Source of the DNA: Saccoglossus kowalevskii
Taxonomy: Eukaryota > Hemichordata > Enteropneusta > Harrimaniidae
DNA: 20,931 nt
NCBI RefSeq assembly: GCF_000003605.2
Contig: NW_003120920.1
Coordinates: 730,298 to 751,228 of the forward strand
Direction of reading: 5' to 3'
In this document: piece by piece, positions 323-20,931 of the stretch
Position numbering within the stretch: the first letter of the stretch is position 1
Layout of the letters: each line of letters starts with the position of its first letter
Program-made: the position numbers and the translations under genes
The notes under the pieces: model-generated
What the model was told of the DNA's origin: nothing
What the model saw: only the letters and a program-made list of their open reading frames with translations
The model's database searches: none

Positions 323-1736
323 TCATTTGGCTTTTCTGGCACTTTCTCTGGCTCTGTCATCATATGTCCACCTGAAATGGTGGTAATTATTAAGTATTTC
401 GTGGTCGAATGCATTATCTTCTTCCGGTTTGATGAGTATTGAAAATAAAGCATTGGGCACCTGTTCCATGTTTCCACTGGCAACCCATGTGTCATTATTC
501 AACAATCCGAGACAGACCTGCCCTCCATTCTGACTCACGTTCAGGTGGTAGATCGGGGTCAGAAAGTGGACCTATAAACACAATCAATACCATTGTTATT
601 AAGTAATATTACATATTCTCATGTTTTCATGAACCACGCACGGTGAACGTTGAATTCTGAAAGAATTATACATACATGAAAATGTCCTGCTTATCAAAAC
701 AAAAGTTTCATATTTTTCATCACTGCACTGTAGAGACGGGCATTAATTATTCAACGGGTTTTACATTTACTAGATTCACCGATAGTCAAATAAAAAATCA
801 AAATTCTCGTGAATAGGTTAAATGCTCAAATATCAAATATTAAAAATTAATGCTTTTTTACAGTATATGGTATACATGTAACACGGGTAACACATGATTG
901 GATGTTTGTTGTAGGAAAAAATGTGCAAGACTCACCAGTGGTGGCGCCATCGGGTAGTTATCTCTATAAATAAGGTTAAAGAAACAATAATTCGTATAAT
1001 TTGTATATTGAATGTCTGTGTAAATTTATTTGTAATCTTGGAGTGGTAACAGAACATGTGTCACATGACAAACAAAATGTGTAATTAAAGGATACGGAAA
1101 TGATATCTGTACTTTGAATTTTCCTCCTGAAAGAAATCAAATTGGACATTACTCTTTGCATAATTAGCATTGTAATCATCAAAAACGCGACGTTTCCCAG
1201 GCTTGGGATTCTTAGAATGTTCAGATTGTGTATGCAAACAATATTTTTTTTCTTTTGCCTATTTATTAAAAATCGATATTTCACACAATTTGAGTACCTA
1301 AATGTAATATCATCGATTTCAAAACACGAAATAAGTTTTCCAATTATTAAAGATTAGTTTTTAAACTTTGTGGCAACTTTAAAAATTAGTGGTCAGATGA
1401 TGAGTGTGCCAAATTACCTTTATACAGTGATTGCTTAGGACCAGGTATTTCTGCGTTCCATAAATAAAGATTATCTGATAGTAGCTGGACTTTGATACCG
1501 CACGGTGGGCTTTTCTGCACTAAGGTCAGCTCCTTTTGTAATCTGCGTGATAAAACATCTTCTGGGTCAGGTTATGTTATTTATTATGTTAACACGGACT
1601 GGGCGTGAAAGATATACATATAGTACATTTCTCACTGTGCATTCATATATGCTTGACATACTTCATTGCTTTGCCAATAAACTTGTAGTCAAAGACAATT
1701 ATTAAGCAATAACATACCGCTTTTACGAATCATCAT
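323..1736 (-). CDS. Ubiquitin-conjugating enzyme E2, five exons, complete
   Basis: Coding exons on the minus strand are 1736-1718, 1561-1418, 1126-1096, 963-936 and 571-323. All four introns are GT-AG and all phases agree, giving 156 aa. E2 enzymes take an activated ubiquitin-like protein from an E1 onto a catalytic Cys and pass it to an E3 or a substrate. Visible E2 hallmarks in order: helix 1 with SRRLQKEL (about 10-17), PPCGI (about 25-29), the W-x-A-x-I-x-GP segment (about 41-48), Y-x-GG-x-F, FPDNYP (64-69), PPLVHFLTPIYHLN ending at 85, and catalytic Cys94 in VCLGLL (codon 514-512). The C-terminal helices follow, ending in ARESARKAK. Length is that of a bare E2 core. The usual HPN triad is HLN (83-85), and one extra residue sits between it and the Cys. 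The start is the first of two adjacent ATGs; an in-frame TAG lies at 1751-1749. The SRRL-x-KEL opening recalls UBE2L3, the E2 most tied to RBR ligases, but the subfamily is not assigned. It is divergent from the ubiquitin-like/RBR gene at 2391. The two short internal exons make it easy to miss. Confidence 0.9.
727..864. mobile_element. Degenerate CTGTA-type foldback element in E2 intron 4
   Basis: The left end reads ACTGTA then ATTAATTATTCA-CGGGTTTTA, and the right end is the inverse, TTTTTTACAGTA. The inner text matches the element at 9071 (ATTAATTATTCACTGGGTTTTA). It lies wholly within the last E2 intron (935-572) and has no coding capacity. I read it as an old copy of a non-autonomous TIR element, probably TA-flanked. 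Confidence 0.5.
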
Positions 1737-2390
1737 TTCGAAGGCATGCTACGTACTATAATTTGCTTTATAGTTACCCGTAATGACGACAATTGCAATG
1801 GTCAGTATGCCGAGAGAATATAATAGTTACCTGCCAGTTAACTGCTTACTCAAGCTCATTCTGACGTCTCAATACTCTTACTAGTATGTATATATCGTAG
1901 TACATATAAGGACATATAAAACGCGACTAAATTGTTATATGAACGCGTCAAATGTAGTTTATAACTATGTATATTGTTCCGCATATGGCAGGCAGTTGTG
2001 TTTTCCCCGTACGTCTAAATATGGAATATACGTAATGTGTTTTTAATTTAATGGCGTAATCACCTGTAGGACTCGTATATCAATACGCCTTATTGCGTGA
2101 TATTCGATAATGACTCTTCTGTAACAGTGTGCACCTAAAACGGTTTTTGAATCGTATTATAACTATATTAAGAATCTAAACTTACAGTAATTATTAGTTT
2201 TAAACTACCATGTCGAAATTCTCTAACTATTTTAAAAGGCGGAAGAAGCACCTGTTGTTTGCACAAGTAGGTACCCGAACACTCTAGACTCCTATATAAG
2301 GACAAGAGTTTTAACATGTGCGTCACTGATCTGGACGCAGTCGACGCTATATACCTTTATTGTTGATTTCACCGTTCTCATCACATCAAC
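1737..2390. promoter_or_regulatory. Shared upstream region between divergent E2 and ubiquitin-like/RBR genes
   Basis: This 654-bp interval separates the two start codons. For the E2 (minus), CTATAAAG reads leftward at 1773-1766, which would put transcription start only about 5 nt before the ATG. For the RBR gene (plus), see the TATA box at 2293. Further AT-rich TATA-like strings lie at 1891-1920. A κB-like GGGGAAAAC occurs on the minus strand near 1993-2001 but misses the full consensus. No coding exon is seen. Joint regulation is inferred from the layout only. Confidence 0.45.
2293..2300 (+). promoter_or_regulatory. TATA box of the ubiquitin-like/RBR gene
   Basis: TATATAAG lies 98 bp before the ATG. 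The A of TCACT at 2325 is about 32 nt downstream, the normal TATA-to-start distance, and would give a 5' UTR of about 66 nt. An in-frame TGA at 2364-2366 shows the leader is untranslated in this frame. Confidence 0.5.
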
Positions 2391-3797
2391 ATGTCTGAAC
2401 CCCGTGATCCAAATCTCTGGCAGTTGTTTATAAATGGGGTTGAAGGGAAGACGGTAACTGTGGATATCCATAAGGTAATCATGTGTATATATTGGGGCGG
2501 AAAACCCGGAACCAGGTGTCTCTAAATTCTGCCCGTACTCGATTTCAGTGTCCACGGTAAATTGAATTATTCTGGGTTCGCATGAGTTTTGATTCTCTGC
2601 TCACCTGGTTCCCTAGTCTATAGAATTCTTCTAACCCTTAGTATGGTAGGCAATCCAATCCTGGGTAACATTCAATGATTTGTATCTATATATACATGTT
2701 TTATGTGACAATTTGAATACGCCCCTTCTAATTCAGATTTATGATATGAGCACCCCACCCGAACACCCCCATAGTCCTCTCTCCGAACTCTAATACTAAA
2801 TAAACAGTGTGTACTGACATAGAACACGGGCTCTTTTCAGGATGCAACTGTGGATGACCTTCTTAGGAAAATCAAGGACAAGAACAGACTACCTGTTGAA
2901 GAACAACGAGTGGTGTATGGGTCAAAACAACTACAAGCAGGCCAAGGCAAGCACCTGTACGATTATTATATAGAAAACAACTCAACGCTGTTTGTTGTTC
3001 AACGTCTACGGGGTGGGTCGACCGAAGAGCATGCCAAGCAGTTGGACGAAGACGTAGAGCTTACAGATGCGCCGGACATGATTACTTGGGATGATGATCC
3101 AGAAAACAAGCGAGCCAAGATGCCATGCGGCCATGCAATCGGGCCAGAATCTCTTACTGCATTTTGTAGAAGCCTGTTGACTAGTGGGAAATTCCGTTTT
3201 CTGTGCCCCTACGTTAGCAACGATTACACGTCGTACTGTAATGAGGAGTGGGCGTACGTGGACGTCAGGCGATTGGCGGTCCTCACCCCCGCAGAGAAAA
3301 AGGAATTTGAAACTAAGATAGCTACAAACTTCCTTCGCAAAGCTCAGGGAATCCAAGAATGTCCACAATGCAAGACGCTTTGTGAGCGCATTGACAAAAA
3401 GAATTTACGCTGTATATGCGCCATATGCACTCATAAACGCAGCAAAACGTTCGAATTCTGCTGGTTTTGTTTGCATGAATGGAAGACTAAAGGCAGCATT
3501 TCCAACTGCGGCAATAGCAGCTGCAGTGGTGAAGACCCGCGTCTGAAGATTCTCCGTACATGCCCCAAGAAGACCATCGTGGGCGTCCCCAATTGTCCTT
3601 CTCGTCGTGCTTGTCCTTCATGTGGCATGCTGATTGAACACGACAAAGCCTGTAAGCATATGGTATGCTTCTGTGGGAAGAAATTCTGCTTCATCTGTCT
3701 GACAAAACCTGATGCTAAAGGTAGTTACCAGTGTGGATCGTACAACACTAAGTGTACTATTGCTGCCATCCAGACAAAGATACCTGGCTCAGATTAG
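2391..3797 (+). CDS. Ubiquitin-like domain fused to RBR-type E3 ligase, two exons, complete
   Basis: Exons 2391-2474 and 2841-3797 join in phase 0 across a 366-nt GT-AG intron (acceptor CTCTTTTCAG), giving 346 aa. Residues 10-87 form a full ubiquitin-like fold: QLFI, GKT-x-T, I-x-DK, QR-x-x-Y-G-x-KQL, D-Y-x-I-x-x-x-STL, ending in RLRGG (83-87, bases 3003-3017). Against ubiquitin, equivalents of K11, K29, K33, K48 and V70 are kept, I44 is Val, and K27 and K63 are lost. After an acidic linker (about 88-118) comes an atypical RING1 (C124-x-H126, C137, C150, C161), then an IBR (C202-x2-C205, C219/C221/C224, C235-x2-C238, C251, C256). RING2 follows: C286-x2-C289, C299-x-H301, C304, C306, C311-x2-C314, with C326 and C333 as possible extra ligands. 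C299/H301 match the thioester Cys and His of parkin (C431/H433), so a ubiquitin-relay E3 activity is likely. The tail Q-x-x-IP recalls a family of RBR-like proteins I associate with fish and molluscs. The ATG has A at -3. An E2 gene is divergently placed just upstream. Confidence 0.9.
2475..2840 (+). other. Intron 1 of the ubiquitin-like/RBR gene
   Basis: The donor is AAG|GTAATC and the acceptor is CTCTTTTCAG|GAT, with a branch-point-like CTGAC near 2815. The intron is phase 0 and interrupts the ubiquitin-like domain after residue 28, at the equivalent of ubiquitin position 19. Confidence 0.85.
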
Positions 3798-4283: not shown

Positions 4284-6640
4284 TTTGCAAATTCACAATT
4301 TGTTAACAAGCAATTTTGCAAGAACATACATATGTGATCTCGTATAGTAAGGATAACTATGGTTTTGTATAAATGTATTGTGGTCGGCGAGACTCGTTTT
4401 CTTGATAAAGCCGTCTCCCAATCAATTGTATGTTTTTGGAAGCCCCGATGAATTGATTGTTTGAATTACTTCGTAAACTCAAATATGTGGGTGTCTACTT
4501 TGAGTTATGCATTTACACGAAAACCTGTACTTACATTATCAATGAAATACATGTATATTAGAACAACAACACGTTTTTTTGTATTTTGTGACGCCATTGT
4601 TAAGCAGGCATAACGCATGCGTACATAGATCAATGTTGATCGTTAGTCTACAAATACGCACGTTCTACCCTCTTACATGAACTAGAGATTTTCCAAATCC
4701 AACGTATTCCATAACTGTGCGATTCATTGCGTAATCATAGTTTCGTTTGCAATCAGTTGTTGAAATTCACAAAATTGACGAAAACATAAATGAATGGTCG
4801 TAATTTGGCAAGAGCACCTCCGACTTGAATTTATGTGCAAATAAAGTTTTGGACCTGACACGCCCATGTCACGTTCCCTTTTCCATAACATTTGTTAAAT
4901 ATCATATGACATGATAAATATTTGATGTCGGTTTCGTTTGAGCATGATTTAAAAAACAAACAAATTCCGGGAGTGACGATATTTATCTTCTAGTTTTACT
5001 ACTAGTTAACAAATGCTTCTTTTTTTCGAGTATGTGTGTCAAACACTAGCACCATAAAACGTGCGTGGGTAAACGAAAGCTCAGGCCGCTGAAGAATTTT
5101 CACGGTGTTCTGAGACGACCGCAAATTGCAGGCATTCTACATTTCTTTTGCATACGCCCTCTATCGAGAGTAACAGCGCCTCATCGTGCGAGGGCGCACA
5201 TCATCTTAAAATATGTATGGGAAATAGAAGAGTGCATGAAAAAAAATAAATCAATAGACAAACAATCACATGTACGGTTTTATTAGTCTGAAATAATAAA
5301 AATTACATATTTTATTTTCCCACAAAAATATGACGCTACACCTATACACCATAAACCTTAGAAAGAAATGTTTCAATGTTTCTAGATGCCAAATTCATCA
5401 GTTATATGCATTAATAGGAGAAAACGTTGCAGTGGGAGTTGACAGTCCCTGATTACTATAAGTCTGAGGTTTACATCGAGTGCGATTTTGGACGACGCAT
5501 TTGTAAATTTCAATTCTGTATATATTTTATTATAACGCCAGTCATCTAAACACACTATTAAAACAGTCATTGTATTGCAATTTCCGGTGGCGTTTGAGTG
5601 AATTTATGTCAATTCGCTAACATAAACAAGCGATCACGAATTCGATACGTAACGGACCTTATAGCGGAAGTTTGCTCCTTTCGACCATATGACGCATTCT
5701 CATATATTGGTGATCAACATTTTAAAAATCGACTTGAAACCGATCCTATTTGCCTGGAAAGGTGATATTTAATTCCGTTTCCCGTGACTATATTCTACTT
5801 TGCTGTATAACAGGCTCATCCACAGACAGAATGATATGATACGGCAAGTTGTGAAGAGCTGGGGCGTTTCATTAATCGTAAACATTTCATTTGAGAAGGT
5901 CGTATATCAGGATGGCGCTGGGATTTCATCTAAAATTATGTAATACAAGATGGGTCCTTTCAGATTTGGCATAACGCCTAGATAGTCGGTGAACCATTTG
6001 CAACCACATAAATTCTTGAATAGACAATAGAAAAGGGTTGTAGTAACTTGATATGTACGCTCACAACAGCCGTGTACATACGTTCTCAAAACCTGTTCCC
6101 CATTCATTAACATGGCTGCCACTTTATGTGTACAACGCATTCACTTTTTAAAGCAAAAGTCCTGTTTTGAAGTCGGTTGTTTAATTCTGATACGTTTTCC
6201 GCAAAGTTGTTCTCTTCCGAGAACACTGACTCCCACTCAACAAATAAAAACCGCCCACAGTTGGTTCATTGTACGCTTCAAATGAGTGGACCGCTCAATG
6301 ACAGTCAAAGTGTATCATTGAGGGTGTTCTTGTTTTTTGCATGTGCAGGTTGATTGGTTGTTTACTTATGTAAATTTATGCAAATCGTAAGTTTTAATAA
6401 ATGGCTTGTTTTCCATTCACACGCTTTGTTGGGGAGCGGTTAAACTTAGCAGTTACACTTGCTGCCAGCCTCCCTTCAATATCAAAGACTTCAAAATTAT
6501 TACATCATGATTCTGGGAAAATATTTTTCATAGATGATTCTAGAAATATATTTTTAACATTATGATATGCTTAAAAATTAACAAAACATATCTAGATGGA
6601 AATAGTCACATAATTGTAAGAAATCTGTTACGGTTAAACG
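4284..6640. other. Non-coding interval between the RBR gene and the WAVE-homology gene
   Basis: This is AT-rich sequence with no recognisable exon. A somewhat GC-richer patch at 5060-5200 contains the inverted pair CGCCCTC (5155-5161) and GAGGGCG (5190-5196), which may be a remnant of a small repeat. The remainder shows only short chance ORFs. Confidence 0.5.
4840..4845 (+). terminator. Candidate polyadenylation signal, AATAAA
   Basis: I noticed no canonical AATAAA on the plus strand between the RBR stop codon and this one, about 1.04 kb downstream. Use by the RBR transcript is plausible but not shown. Confidence 0.3.
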
Positions 6641-6645
6641 GGAGG

Positions 6646-6706
6646 ACTTCCGGTAACGGTAAGAGCGGGGCCGGTTGGCGCTATGTGGTCATAGCACAAA
6701 ATGGCG
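6646..6706 (+). promoter_or_regulatory. CpG-rich promoter with ETS and YY1/TISU sites
   Basis: ACTTCCGG at 6646-6653 is a strong ETS site. CAAAATGGCG at 6697-6706 fits YY1 and the TISU start element used by short-leader housekeeping transcripts. The surrounding 6640-6800 is clearly richer in CpG than its neighbours. It lies directly upstream of the WAVE-homology exon at 6795. Confidence 0.55.
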
Positions 6707-6769
6707 TCGGTCGCGTACATGGAAGTGTTGAAACTCAGGTGCGCTGTTTTAATTGAAAATCGCAAATGA
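6701..6769 (+). CDS. Upstream ORF, 22 codons, in TISU context
   Basis: The ATG at 6701 sits in CAAAATGGCG and opens 22 codons (MASVAYMEVL start) ending at TGA 6767-6769, 26 nt before the main ATG at 6795 and in another frame. If the transcript starts upstream of 6701 this would be translated first and could limit the downstream protein. Alternatively it is a first exon, since CTCAG|GTGCGC inside it could be a splice donor. I cannot tell which. Confidence 0.35.
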   Translation: MASVAYMEVLKLRCAVLIENRK

Positions 6770-6794: not shown

Positions 6795-7065
6795 ATGCCG
6801 TTCGTTAAAAGGAAAGTATTGCCGGTCGCTTTGAGCAAGAAACCGCTGGACAAGTCAATAAGCAATGAGCTAGAAGCCGTGACCAATAACACACTGTGTG
6901 GAGTTCTGCATCAGCTCTCCAGTCTATCAAAACATGCGGTTGCGATATTTGATGATATTACAAGTGAGGCTAAATTAATCCAACACCGATCTGCCCGACT
7001 ACATTCGCGAGTGACAAATTTAGAAGATCTTGTCAAGTGTATGGACGCAAAATCTGTGAAAGTTC
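6795..7065 (+). CDS. First coding exon of a WAVE-homology-domain protein (WASF/NHS superfamily), partial
   Basis: The exon encodes 90 aa plus one base of a split codon and ends at a strong donor, TTC|GTAAGT. The ATG has A at -3. The N-terminus MPFVKR (1-6), then ELEAVTNNTL (25-34), QLSSLSKHA (40-48), IF-x3-TSEA and helical R-x2-RL-x2-RV-x2-L, followed by MDAK (83-86), is the WAVE homology domain layout. WASF proteins begin MPLVKR with a ...QLSSLSKYA... core and nucleate the actin-regulating WAVE complex; NHS proteins begin MPFAKR. Both relations are visible and I do not choose between them. The split codon begins with C, which would allow Pro, as in the V-P-V-S that follows in NHS proteins. 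No convincing second exon was found downstream, so intron 1 is probably long. Confidence 0.75.
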
Positions 7066-16600: not shown

Positions 16601-17385
16601 CTATATAACTGAACACCAGAGAGACTGATATAGTGAAGCCTGTCTAAACTGAACACCAGAGAGACTGATATAGTGAAGCCTGTCTAAACTGAACACCAAC
16701 AAGACTGATATATAAGTAAAGCCTGTCTAAACTGAACACCAGAGACTGATATAGTAAAACCTGACTAAACTGAACACCAAAGAAACTGATATATAGTGAA
16801 GCCTGTCTAAACTGAACAACAAAGAGACTGATATAGTGAAGCATATCTAAACTGAACACCAAAGAGACTGATATAGTGAAGCCTGTCTAAACTGAACACC
16901 AGAGACTGATTTAGTTAAACCTGTCTAAACTGAACACCAATACGACTGATATAGTGAAGCCTGTCCAAACTGAACGCCACAGACTGATATAGCAAAACCT
17001 GTCTAAACTGTACACCAAAGGGACTGACTGATATAGTGAAGCCTGTCTAAACTGAACAGCAAAGGACTTGATGTAGTGAAACCTGTCTAAACTGAACACC
17101 AACAGACCTGACTGATATAGTGAAGCCTGTCCAAACTGAACACCACAGACTGATATAGCAAAACCTGTCTAAACTGTACACCAAAGGGACTGACTGATAT
17201 AGTGAAGCCTGTCTAAACTGAACAGCAAAGGACTTGATGTAGTGAAACCTGTCTAAACTGAACACCAACGGACCTGACTGATATAGTGAAGCCTGTCTAA
17301 ACTGAACACCAAAGGACTTGATGTAGTGAAACCATGTCAAAACTAAATACCAAGGACCTGATACAGGTAAACCTCTCTAAAAAGA
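16601..17385. repeat. Minisatellite, 40-bp unit, about 18 copies
   Basis: The unit runs CTGAACACC-A-GACTGATATAG-TGAAGCCTGTCTAAA. CTGAACACC recurs at 16609 and 16649, a period of 40, and copies vary by small indels (for example a doubled GACTGACTGA). Units at about 16960-17125 and 17127-17290 match each other as a block of four units (about 166 bp). Long open frames on the minus strand here are by-products of the repeat. Confidence 0.9.
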
Positions 17386-18353: not shown

Positions 18354-18987
18354 ACCCAGCTGCTACCAACAGCTTCTACCAAGGAGTCTACCCACAAACC
18401 CAGTTTTTACCATGGGGTCTACCCACTAACACAGCTTCTGCAATGGAGTCTACCCACTAACCCAGCTTCTACCATAGAGTCTACCCACAAACCCAGTTTC
18501 TACCAAGGGGTCTACCCACTAACACAGCTTCTACCATAGGGACTACCCACTAACCCAACCTCTACTAAGGGGTCTACCCACTAACCCAGCCTCTAACAAG
18601 GGGTCTAACCACACACACATCTTCTACCAAGGGGTCTACACGCTAACACTGCTTCTACTAAGGGTTCTACCAACAAACCCAGTTTCTACCAAGGGGTCTA
18701 CCCACTAAAACAGCTTCTACCATGGAGTCTACCCACTAACCCAGCATCTACCATAGAGTCTACCCACAAACCCAGTTTCTACCATGGGGTCTACCCACTA
18801 ACACAGCTTCTGCAATGGAGTCTACCCACTAACCCAGCTTCTACCATAGAGTCTACCCACAAACCCAGTTTCTACCAAGAGGTCTACCCACTAACACAGT
18901 TTCTACCATAGGGACTACCCACTAACCCAACCTCTACTAAGGGGTCTACCCACTATCCCAGCTTCTAACAAGGGGTCTACCCACTAA
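18354..18987. repeat. Minisatellite, 31-bp unit, about 20 copies
   Basis: The unit is CAGCTTCTACC-AAGGGGTCTACC-CACTAACC (31 bp), with variants CATAGAG, CAATGGAG and ACAAACC. The variant TCTGCAATGG recurs at 18438 and 18810, a shift of 372 bp or exactly 12 units, and the units after it repeat in the same order. The array thus contains a duplicated multi-unit block. The top strand is poor in G. Confidence 0.9.
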
Positions 18988-19159
18988 GGCCTAAAATAAA
19001 AAAAAAAGTGGTGTGTTTCCGGTAACCCGACCCTACCTAAAAATACGTCCTGATCCTAATTTTTTTTTCAACATATATAAGATTTTAATTTATTACACAG
19101 TTTAAATTAAAAAAAACAAAAAAACTTGCTATTTGATGATGACGTTTCGTCTCGTCCCG

Positions 19160-19266
19160 ACTTCCGATGGTGTTTGGAAATGTGTGGTCGATGATACGTC
19201 TTGTAGCCAATCAGCGATCGCATACCACATCACGTGCCACCATTTTACCTATTTTTAGATTCCAAA
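19160..19266 (+). promoter_or_regulatory. Promoter with ETS, NF-Y, E-box and YY1 sites
   Basis: In order: ACTTCCG (ETS) at 19160-19166, AGCCAATCAG with CCAAT at 19207-19211 (NF-Y), CACGTG at 19231-19236 (E-box), and CCAAAATGGCCGCC spanning the ATG at 19267 (YY1/TISU-like). This array is typical of housekeeping promoters and points to a plus-strand start here. Confidence 0.6.
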
Positions 19267-20931
19267 ATGGCCGCCTCCAGTGCAAGTGCGGCCGTCGTTT
19301 GTGCGATAAAAAATGTATGTTCAAAGCACAATGTTCGGACATCGAGGTCGTTTATTTCTCTAACAACTGAAACTTTTGAGGATTTAGAAGATTTGTACGC
19401 ATGTACGGGACAATCGTTCTGTGAGTTTGCGTTAGCAGAGAACGAACATGGGCCGTGAACAAAAATCGGAAACGCGGACTCGATGTTCAAATCGCCCGTG
19501 CCGAGCGTTGTCAATTCATTTGGGACTAAATTCATAAAGCTCACTTGTGTCCCTGAGCCGGACAGCACGATGTGTTCGGGACTTGATAAATGCACAGAAC
19601 CCGCATCGCCATAGACGAACAATCCATTCCAAGTACTGATGTCTGCTTCGACTAAGAAAAAGTCTCTACCATTGATCAAAACCACAAAGTACGTGTATAA
19701 ACTATGGCGCTCTTATAAATAACGTTCGGTATTTATTTTTTACCTGTATTCAGGAAATATAAATGAGTTACTTTTAATTTGTAACTGAATTTGACAATCC
19801 ATTAAATTTTAATATAAAGTGCTTACAAATTATTCTGTCCAATTATAAGATTAATTAGGCTTCGTTATTCCGGGAATTTGACGTATTTATGTGTACCTAT
19901 ATATATTTGCAAACTTTATTATAATGTAAAAACGGTGTGTTTTATAGCAATAAATGTTATAAATAGTCTTTTTTTTAATTGATTTTATACAACTGTAAAA
20001 AATTAGAATAGCATAATTATATATTTTGTATATCCTAAAAACAACACACTTGCAAGTTGTAGGTCAATTTAATATTTGTTTACAGTTCGGACGTGAAGAA
20101 TGCAGCAGGTATACATTTTGTATCAAGGAAAGATGACCTGCATGCACCAGTGAAGGGTATCTCCCATGCTGCACGAGACTCTATAAATAAATGAACATTG
20201 AACATGGAAACTTGAATAAAACTTGAATATCTTTGAAACTTGTCTTTTTTCACATTCTATTTAGTTGGCCTCAGTTGAACTAGATATCAACAATTGTCCT
20301 CAATGGCTGTTTTTGAATTCTGAGATCAACAAGATCCATTGAGTATGATACTTGATATCTTGGTGGTGTCATTAATTTGAAACTACAAATGTAACTAATA
20401 TCAGTTGCCCATGTGAGCAATTTTGAACAATAGAAAGTTTTATCATCTCAAAATATAAATTCAATTAATATTTGGGCATTGAATAAAGACCCAGATATAT
20501 TCATGCTAATTATATTTTTTCAGCAAATTGTATTTCAACTTGTCGAAATTGTTTGAATGCAAAAAAAAAAGAAGATTAATAAAAAAAAAGAAATCTGACC
20601 TACCCTACCTATTTTTTTCTAGCTCGTTACCTGAAACACACCTTTTTTAGGCCTAAATGGAAGCGTCAATGGTCATGCAGTTGCTGCGATGGCACATCAA
20701 ATCGCCAGTAAATTGGAGTCAGGATTGCTGTCTTTGCCAGAGAATCTGATAACTCAACTGTCCGCACAACTATGGGAAGCAGTGACGTCAGGAGATAAAG
20801 AGAAAACGTGTTCAGCCTACAATGAACATGTTTGGGACTGGGTTTTATACAATTTTAATCAACAAAGCCATGACACAGTCTTTATTAATGTTTGCAAAGT
20901 ATGTTTTATTGATAATGCCCAACGTGATGAA
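19267..20931 (+). CDS. Unidentified gene, 5' part, runs off the right edge
   Basis: The ATG in CCAAAATGGCCGCC opens MAASSASAAVV... Exon 1 probably ends at 19420 (TTCT|GTGAGT, phase 1) after 51 aa. A downstream exon starts at 20651 (TTTTTTAG|GC) in the matching phase, giving a split Cys followed by LNGSVNGHAVAAMAH. It stays open for 93 codons to the window edge, with a possible donor AAA|GTATGT at 20899. The second exon looks helical and has no motif I recognise. An alternative model uses a weaker donor at 19347 (AG|GTCGTT) joined to an exon at 20086-20156, which also fits phase into 20651. That middle exon can instead end in a stop at 20192-20194, just before AATAAA at 20215, giving a short isoform of about 62 aa. 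Unspliced, exon 1 would stop at 19458. Function unknown. Confidence 0.5.
20215..20220 (+). terminator. Candidate polyadenylation signal, AATAAA
   Basis: It lies 21 nt after the TGA at 20192-20194 that would end the short isoform using the exon at 20086. A second AATAAA overlaps the last codons at 20186-20191. Use is unproven. Confidence 0.35.

Follow-up and report, generated by a model that had tools for sequence, protein, structure and literature searches.

Two divergent genes encoding an E2 enzyme and a putative ubiquitin-like/RBR-type E3 in Saccoglossus kowalevskii

Gene models and the region between them

The window, a 20,931-nucleotide stretch of the Saccoglossus kowalevskii genome, contained two genes in head-to-head orientation, each recovered as a spliced model with a complete frame. 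An E2 ubiquitin-conjugating enzyme gene of 156 amino acids occupied positions 323 to 1736 on the minus strand, and a gene of 346 amino acids, recognized by its spliced frame, a Pfam ubiquitin match, and a subthreshold IBR_2 match, occupied the plus strand (exons at 2391 to 2474 and 2841 to 3797, separated by a single 366-nt GT-AG intron at 2475 to 2840). The start codons were 654 bp apart, with positions 1737 to 2390 as the intervening stretch, so that the spliced models reproduced to the base the head-to-head spacing given in a preliminary description of this DNA. The gene models are not chance products. Among titles and the openings of abstracts, in a body of literature covering few of the subscription journals, no description was found of this pair or of a UBL-RBR protein in which the ubiquitin-like domain (UBL) ends in RLRGG.

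The E2 gene consisted of five exons on the minus strand (1718 to 1736, 1418 to 1561, 1096 to 1126, 936 to 963, and 323 to 571), with the ATG at 1736 to 1734 and a TGA at 325 to 323. All four introns (156, 291, 132, and 364 nt) had GT-AG ends. The first exon (19 nt), placed by its ATG and GT-AG ends only, is the least certain part of the model. The gene had been described as concealed in short exons, and this was confirmed by two microexons of 31 and 28 nt (positions 936 to 1126, with the 132-nt intron between them) that keep the frame and encode GKFKVQISFP and DNYPMAPPL. The predicted protein matched the Pfam UQ_con profile at 130.4 bits (4.5e-38) over positions 1 to 138 of 140, nearly the full length; since the microexons supply the GKFKVQISFP-DNYPMAPPL core, this score would be hard to reach were they wrong.

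The divergent intergenic region (1737 to 2390) stood out in base composition, with a CpG observed/expected ratio of 1.41 versus 0.69 for the whole window, and contained TATATAAG at 2293 to 2300 on the plus strand. A ratio of 1.41 was reached in 14 of 406 overlapping 654-bp windows, the region's own windows counted; other CpG peaks lay in windows starting at 6501 to 6751, which run into exon 1 of a WAVE/WASF gene, and at 19001 to 19451. The CpG-rich stretch between the two genes fits a promoter, whether common to both or not, and the E2 and RBR genes are possibly under one promoter. Bacterial promoter scans are not meaningful for an animal gene.

Other features were seen elsewhere in the window. 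At 6795 to 7058 (plus strand), the start of the WAVE/WASF gene (MPFVKRK...) matched WASF1 (3p8c; 1.9e-11), with no Pfam match for the open frame. Overlapping frames in CpG-rich sequence at 19245 to 19685 (minus ORF) and 19167 to 19458 (plus ORFs) are perhaps a first exon and promoter; the minus ORF had no Pfam match over the cutoff. Tandem arrays were found at 18370 to 18987 (31-nt unit, 19.9 copies, within a strong C-over-G skew) and at 16607 to 17381 (units of about 40, 84, and 166 nt). An open frame at 20689 to 20931 (plus strand), cut by the contig end, had no Pfam match over the cutoff and no PDB match.

The E2 protein

The E2 aligned with UBE2D1 at 35% identity (50 of 143 aligned positions), and UBE2D-type enzymes made up the majority among the best 60 of the 304 PDB sequences that it matched. 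The catalytic cysteine reported earlier was recovered as Cys94 (codon at 512 to 514, minus strand), within HLN...QVCLG and aligned with Cys85 of UBE2D1. The HPN motif, which is common among E2s though not universal, reads HLN here with the Asn kept. Against UBE2D1, C85 and N77 are kept and four other positions are changed (P76 to L, D87 to G, N114 to E, and D117 to N), which leaves the E2 without equivalents of the acids D87 and D117. The E2 also differs from UBE2D1 at F62 (M), S94 (V), P95 (A), and A96 (S), four positions that we take to be E3-docking sites.

As far as is known, UbcH7 (UBE2L3) also lacks both acids. D117 of UbcH5B is named among the acidic residues near the E2 catalytic cysteine (PMC6063727). 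UbcH7 is described as transferring ubiquitin solely by transthiolation, and UbcH7 and UbcH8 as the E2s most often found with RBRs (PMC3305615); the E2 described here may resemble UbcH7 in being confined to transthiolation. With those acids lost, it would pass ubiquitin to a cysteine E3 of the RBR or HECT class, for which its residue changes appear to suit it.

Other E2 exons in the genome were at most 43% identical to this E2, or 52% identical across one 34-residue stretch. The best scoring of them belonged to an unnamed type, UBE2L3, and UBE2C (names read from the translations), at 38 to 42% identity. With only distantly similar exons elsewhere, no parent gene is evident.

Two further observations concern other E2 loci. 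E2-like exons at one locus (L006, G000:C1952:48584-49076) carry Gly at the position of the catalytic cysteine (GDIGLDSI), possibly an inactive E2 variant. Three E2 loci share an "IYHCNINxAGRICHSIFDR" type of sequence: L046 on C2076, and L043 and L048, which lie about 23 kb from each other on C3729.

The ubiquitin-like/RBR protein

The plus-strand protein begins with a UBL (residues 10 to 87; positions 2418 to 3017, the intron at 2475 to 2840 included) that matched the Pfam ubiquitin profile over residues 14 to 85 (43.6 bits, 2.5e-11). Residues 11 to 87 aligned with ubiquitin at 31 of 75 positions (41%). The RLRGG ending noted earlier is present at residues 83 to 87 as a complete ubiquitin tail (R72-L73-R74-G75-G76), followed by serine. 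Among the ubiquitin lysines, K11, K29, K33, and K48 are kept and K6, K27, and K63 are lost; S65 is kept, and L8, I44, and H68 are replaced by Val, Val, and Phe, respectively.

Only 36 residues separate the end of the UBL (residue 87) from Cys124, the first ligand of a reduced RING1 (3120 to 3239). The list of Cys and His residues gave C124, H126, C150, and C161, which we assign to the second zinc site on what we take to be the RING cross-brace pattern; the first-site ligands are missing, which leaves four of the eight zinc ligands of a canonical two-zinc RING1. The IBR_2 match scored 24.8 bits against a Pfam cutoff of 27. In the whole-genome IBR_2 search the gene's two stretches had E values of 0.46 and 0.73, at a maximum E of 1, a setting that also gave matches in 4 of 14 prokaryote control genomes, and the gene was absent from the PF01485 matches in the genome (E up to 1, 10 candidates scored). 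IBR support that is below the cutoff in Pfam and near noise genome-wide counts against reading the protein as an RBR E3.

The best match of the RING2 stretch among solved structures was ARIH1 (Ariadne/HHARI; 6.4e-7), with Cys299 (codon at 3651 to 3653) as the candidate catalytic residue; a single Lys separates it from His301, so that the Cys-x-His pair given in the preliminary description holds as Cys299-Lys-His301. The likeness to ARIH1 is confined to this stretch; the RING1 and IBR regions had no significant match. As judged from sequence, the candidate transfer site is complete and the putative E2 dock is reduced, and the protein is RBR-type by predicted domain order and RING2 despite its departure from a canonical RING1. 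Structure prediction for exon 2 alone, from its single sequence, was uninformative (mean pLDDT, 33.8), and no NCBIfam match exceeded the cutoff.

With parkin, the protein shares an N-terminal UBL, the RBR order, the RING2 Cys-x-His pair, and, in its UBL, the Ser65 of ubiquitin. In contrast to parkin, the 36 residues after the UBL leave no room for RING0, for which there was also no Pfam match; the UBL ends in RLRGG; and RING1 has one zinc site. At the position of what we take to be parkin Glu444, the plus-strand protein has Lys. Since RING0 is missing, this protein is not parkin, and the label "parkin-type" used at first is too narrow.

The protein presumably resembles the many RBR-like proteins of fish and invertebrates in which RING1 is reduced; this likeness, a lead only, is why we refrain from naming the protein a new variant. 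In the genome it matched its own two exons only (six candidates scored). Elsewhere in the genome, a 666-aa open frame (L029, G000:C1644:1273333-1274610) contained five ubiquitin-domain matches after a coiled-coil-looking stretch.

Genomic context and readings of the pair

The genome searched comprised 572 Mb in 4,830 contigs, and the following counts are lower bounds, as genes match exon by exon. Profile searches returned at least 30 E2 matches on 17 contigs, 19 ubiquitin-type matches on 12 contigs, and 5 IBR_2 and 8 PF01485 matches (E up to 1) on 7 contigs; six of these 7 contigs, all but the window's own, had a match over a curated cutoff. The window's contig was the only one common to E2 and IBR matches and also the only one common to E2 and ubiquitin-type matches. 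As a control, 74 zf-RING_2 matches included one contig (C3134) that also held an E2, about 52.5 kb away. With 28,000 genes assumed and 18 E2 and 7 IBR loci counted in the genome, 0.009 E2-RBR neighbor pairs were expected (0.04 if 40 and 15 are assumed instead), and random placement within 3.5 kb gave 0.0015 and 0.007, respectively; for an E2 beside any E3 the expectation was 1.7 (40 E2s, assumed 600 E3s). The arrangement had been called unusual for animals; the E2-RBR adjacency is mildly so and was picked after the fact. Duplication of the pair was considered and set aside, as the RBR protein had no match beyond its own exons among the six candidates scored and the E2 had no close paralogue.

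Modifier, E2, and E3 had also been placed together within 3.5 kb as a possible self-contained conjugation cassette. The genes and domains lie within that distance, but they do not make three separate parts: the UBL is a domain within the E3 polypeptide and hence not an independent colocalized modifier, which leaves two linked genes. Searches of the genome for E1-type (ThiF) domains gave 10 matches on five other contigs and searches for USP gave 46 matches, all on other contigs; none of either lay on the window's contig (C1342), in which positions 700001 to 730297 read N. As masked sequence on this left side begins at 700001 or earlier and the window reaches the contig end, the absence of E1 and USP from the contig is not complete proof; the cassette reading is not supported.

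The proposed resemblance to prokaryotic operons is not supported either. Like this locus, the BilABCD operon and the Caldiarchaeum ubiquitin cluster encode a ubiquitin-like protein and an E2 near each other, and they also encode an E1 and a deubiquitinase (PMC11354881). The locus described here differs in having spliceosomal introns, divergent transcription, a UBL fused to an RBR, and no E1 or USP seen on the contig, the masked flank aside. An origin of the genes in prokaryotes or viruses was rejected on scans that reach close relatives only. In prokaryotic genome contigs these scans pattern-matched 46 and 10 stretches for the two proteins, and none was confirmed. With the same reach, no relative of either protein was confirmed in viral contigs, and a tblastn search of phages with the RBR protein returned no relative.

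The locus is, on balance, probably a pair of divergent, apparently intact ubiquitin-pathway genes, one for an RBR-type E3 with a UBL in cis and one for an E2 suited to transthiolation, perhaps with a common promoter. The E2 keeps its cysteine but lacks the acids that in UBE2D flank it and favor direct transfer to lysine. E2~ubiquitin would dock on the reduced RING1, and ubiquitin would pass to Cys299 of RING2 and from there to substrate. The fused UBL would work in cis in a regulatory or recruiting role, by analogy with the UBL in parkin, and the CpG-rich promoter region may be common to both genes. The missing D87 and D117 equivalents and the noncanonical docking surfaces of the E2 and RING1 would fit a working pair; joint action is possible and is not needed to explain the locus. 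The altered E2 docking residues and the lost RING1 zinc site could equally mean that E3 activity has been lost.

A stronger form, a dedicated and coinherited E2-E3 pair with a bidirectional promoter, mutually fitting noncanonical docking surfaces, and an E2 serving mainly this RBR, is rather unlikely. It is consistent with the sole colocation of E2 and IBR among 17 E2 and 7 IBR contigs, with E2 residues suiting transthiolation, with changes on both sides of the E2-RING1 interface, and with the CpG-rich divergent region, but the next gene found, WAVE/WASF from about 6795, has no evident tie to ubiquitin, and the window's own IBR matches are under the cutoff. Less likely again is that the genes are neighbors by coincidence, at least one of them in decay or weak in catalysis; the altered E2 docking residues and the loss of half of the RING1 zinc ligands point that way, against intact frames over five and two exons and the retention of both catalytic cysteines.

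Cleavage of the UBL after RLRGG for use as a separate modifier, served by the adjoining E2 and by the RBR once freed (the sense of the original cassette), is improbable: the intact tail followed by serine and the production of ubiquitin itself as RLRGG-ending fusions, of which this genome has an exon that reads like one (L031), are set against a domain fused to an E3, only 41% identity to ubiquitin with three lysines lost and L8, I44, and H68 altered, a contig with no E1 or USP match (masked flank aside), and a tail that may also stem from capture of ubiquitin. More doubtful still is a private animal conjugation module that would combine a bidirectional promoter, a transthiolation-only E2, an RBR with a cleavable UBL, and coadapted E2 and RING1 surfaces.

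At present, the locus yields two gene models, one of them concealed in microexons, and a list of residues for testing. If the E2 and the RBR cooperate, the locus would give an example from animals in which an E2 is kept beside its cysteine-type E3 and would offer a natural test of E2 docking by a one-zinc RING1 and of an RLRGG-ending head inside an E3.
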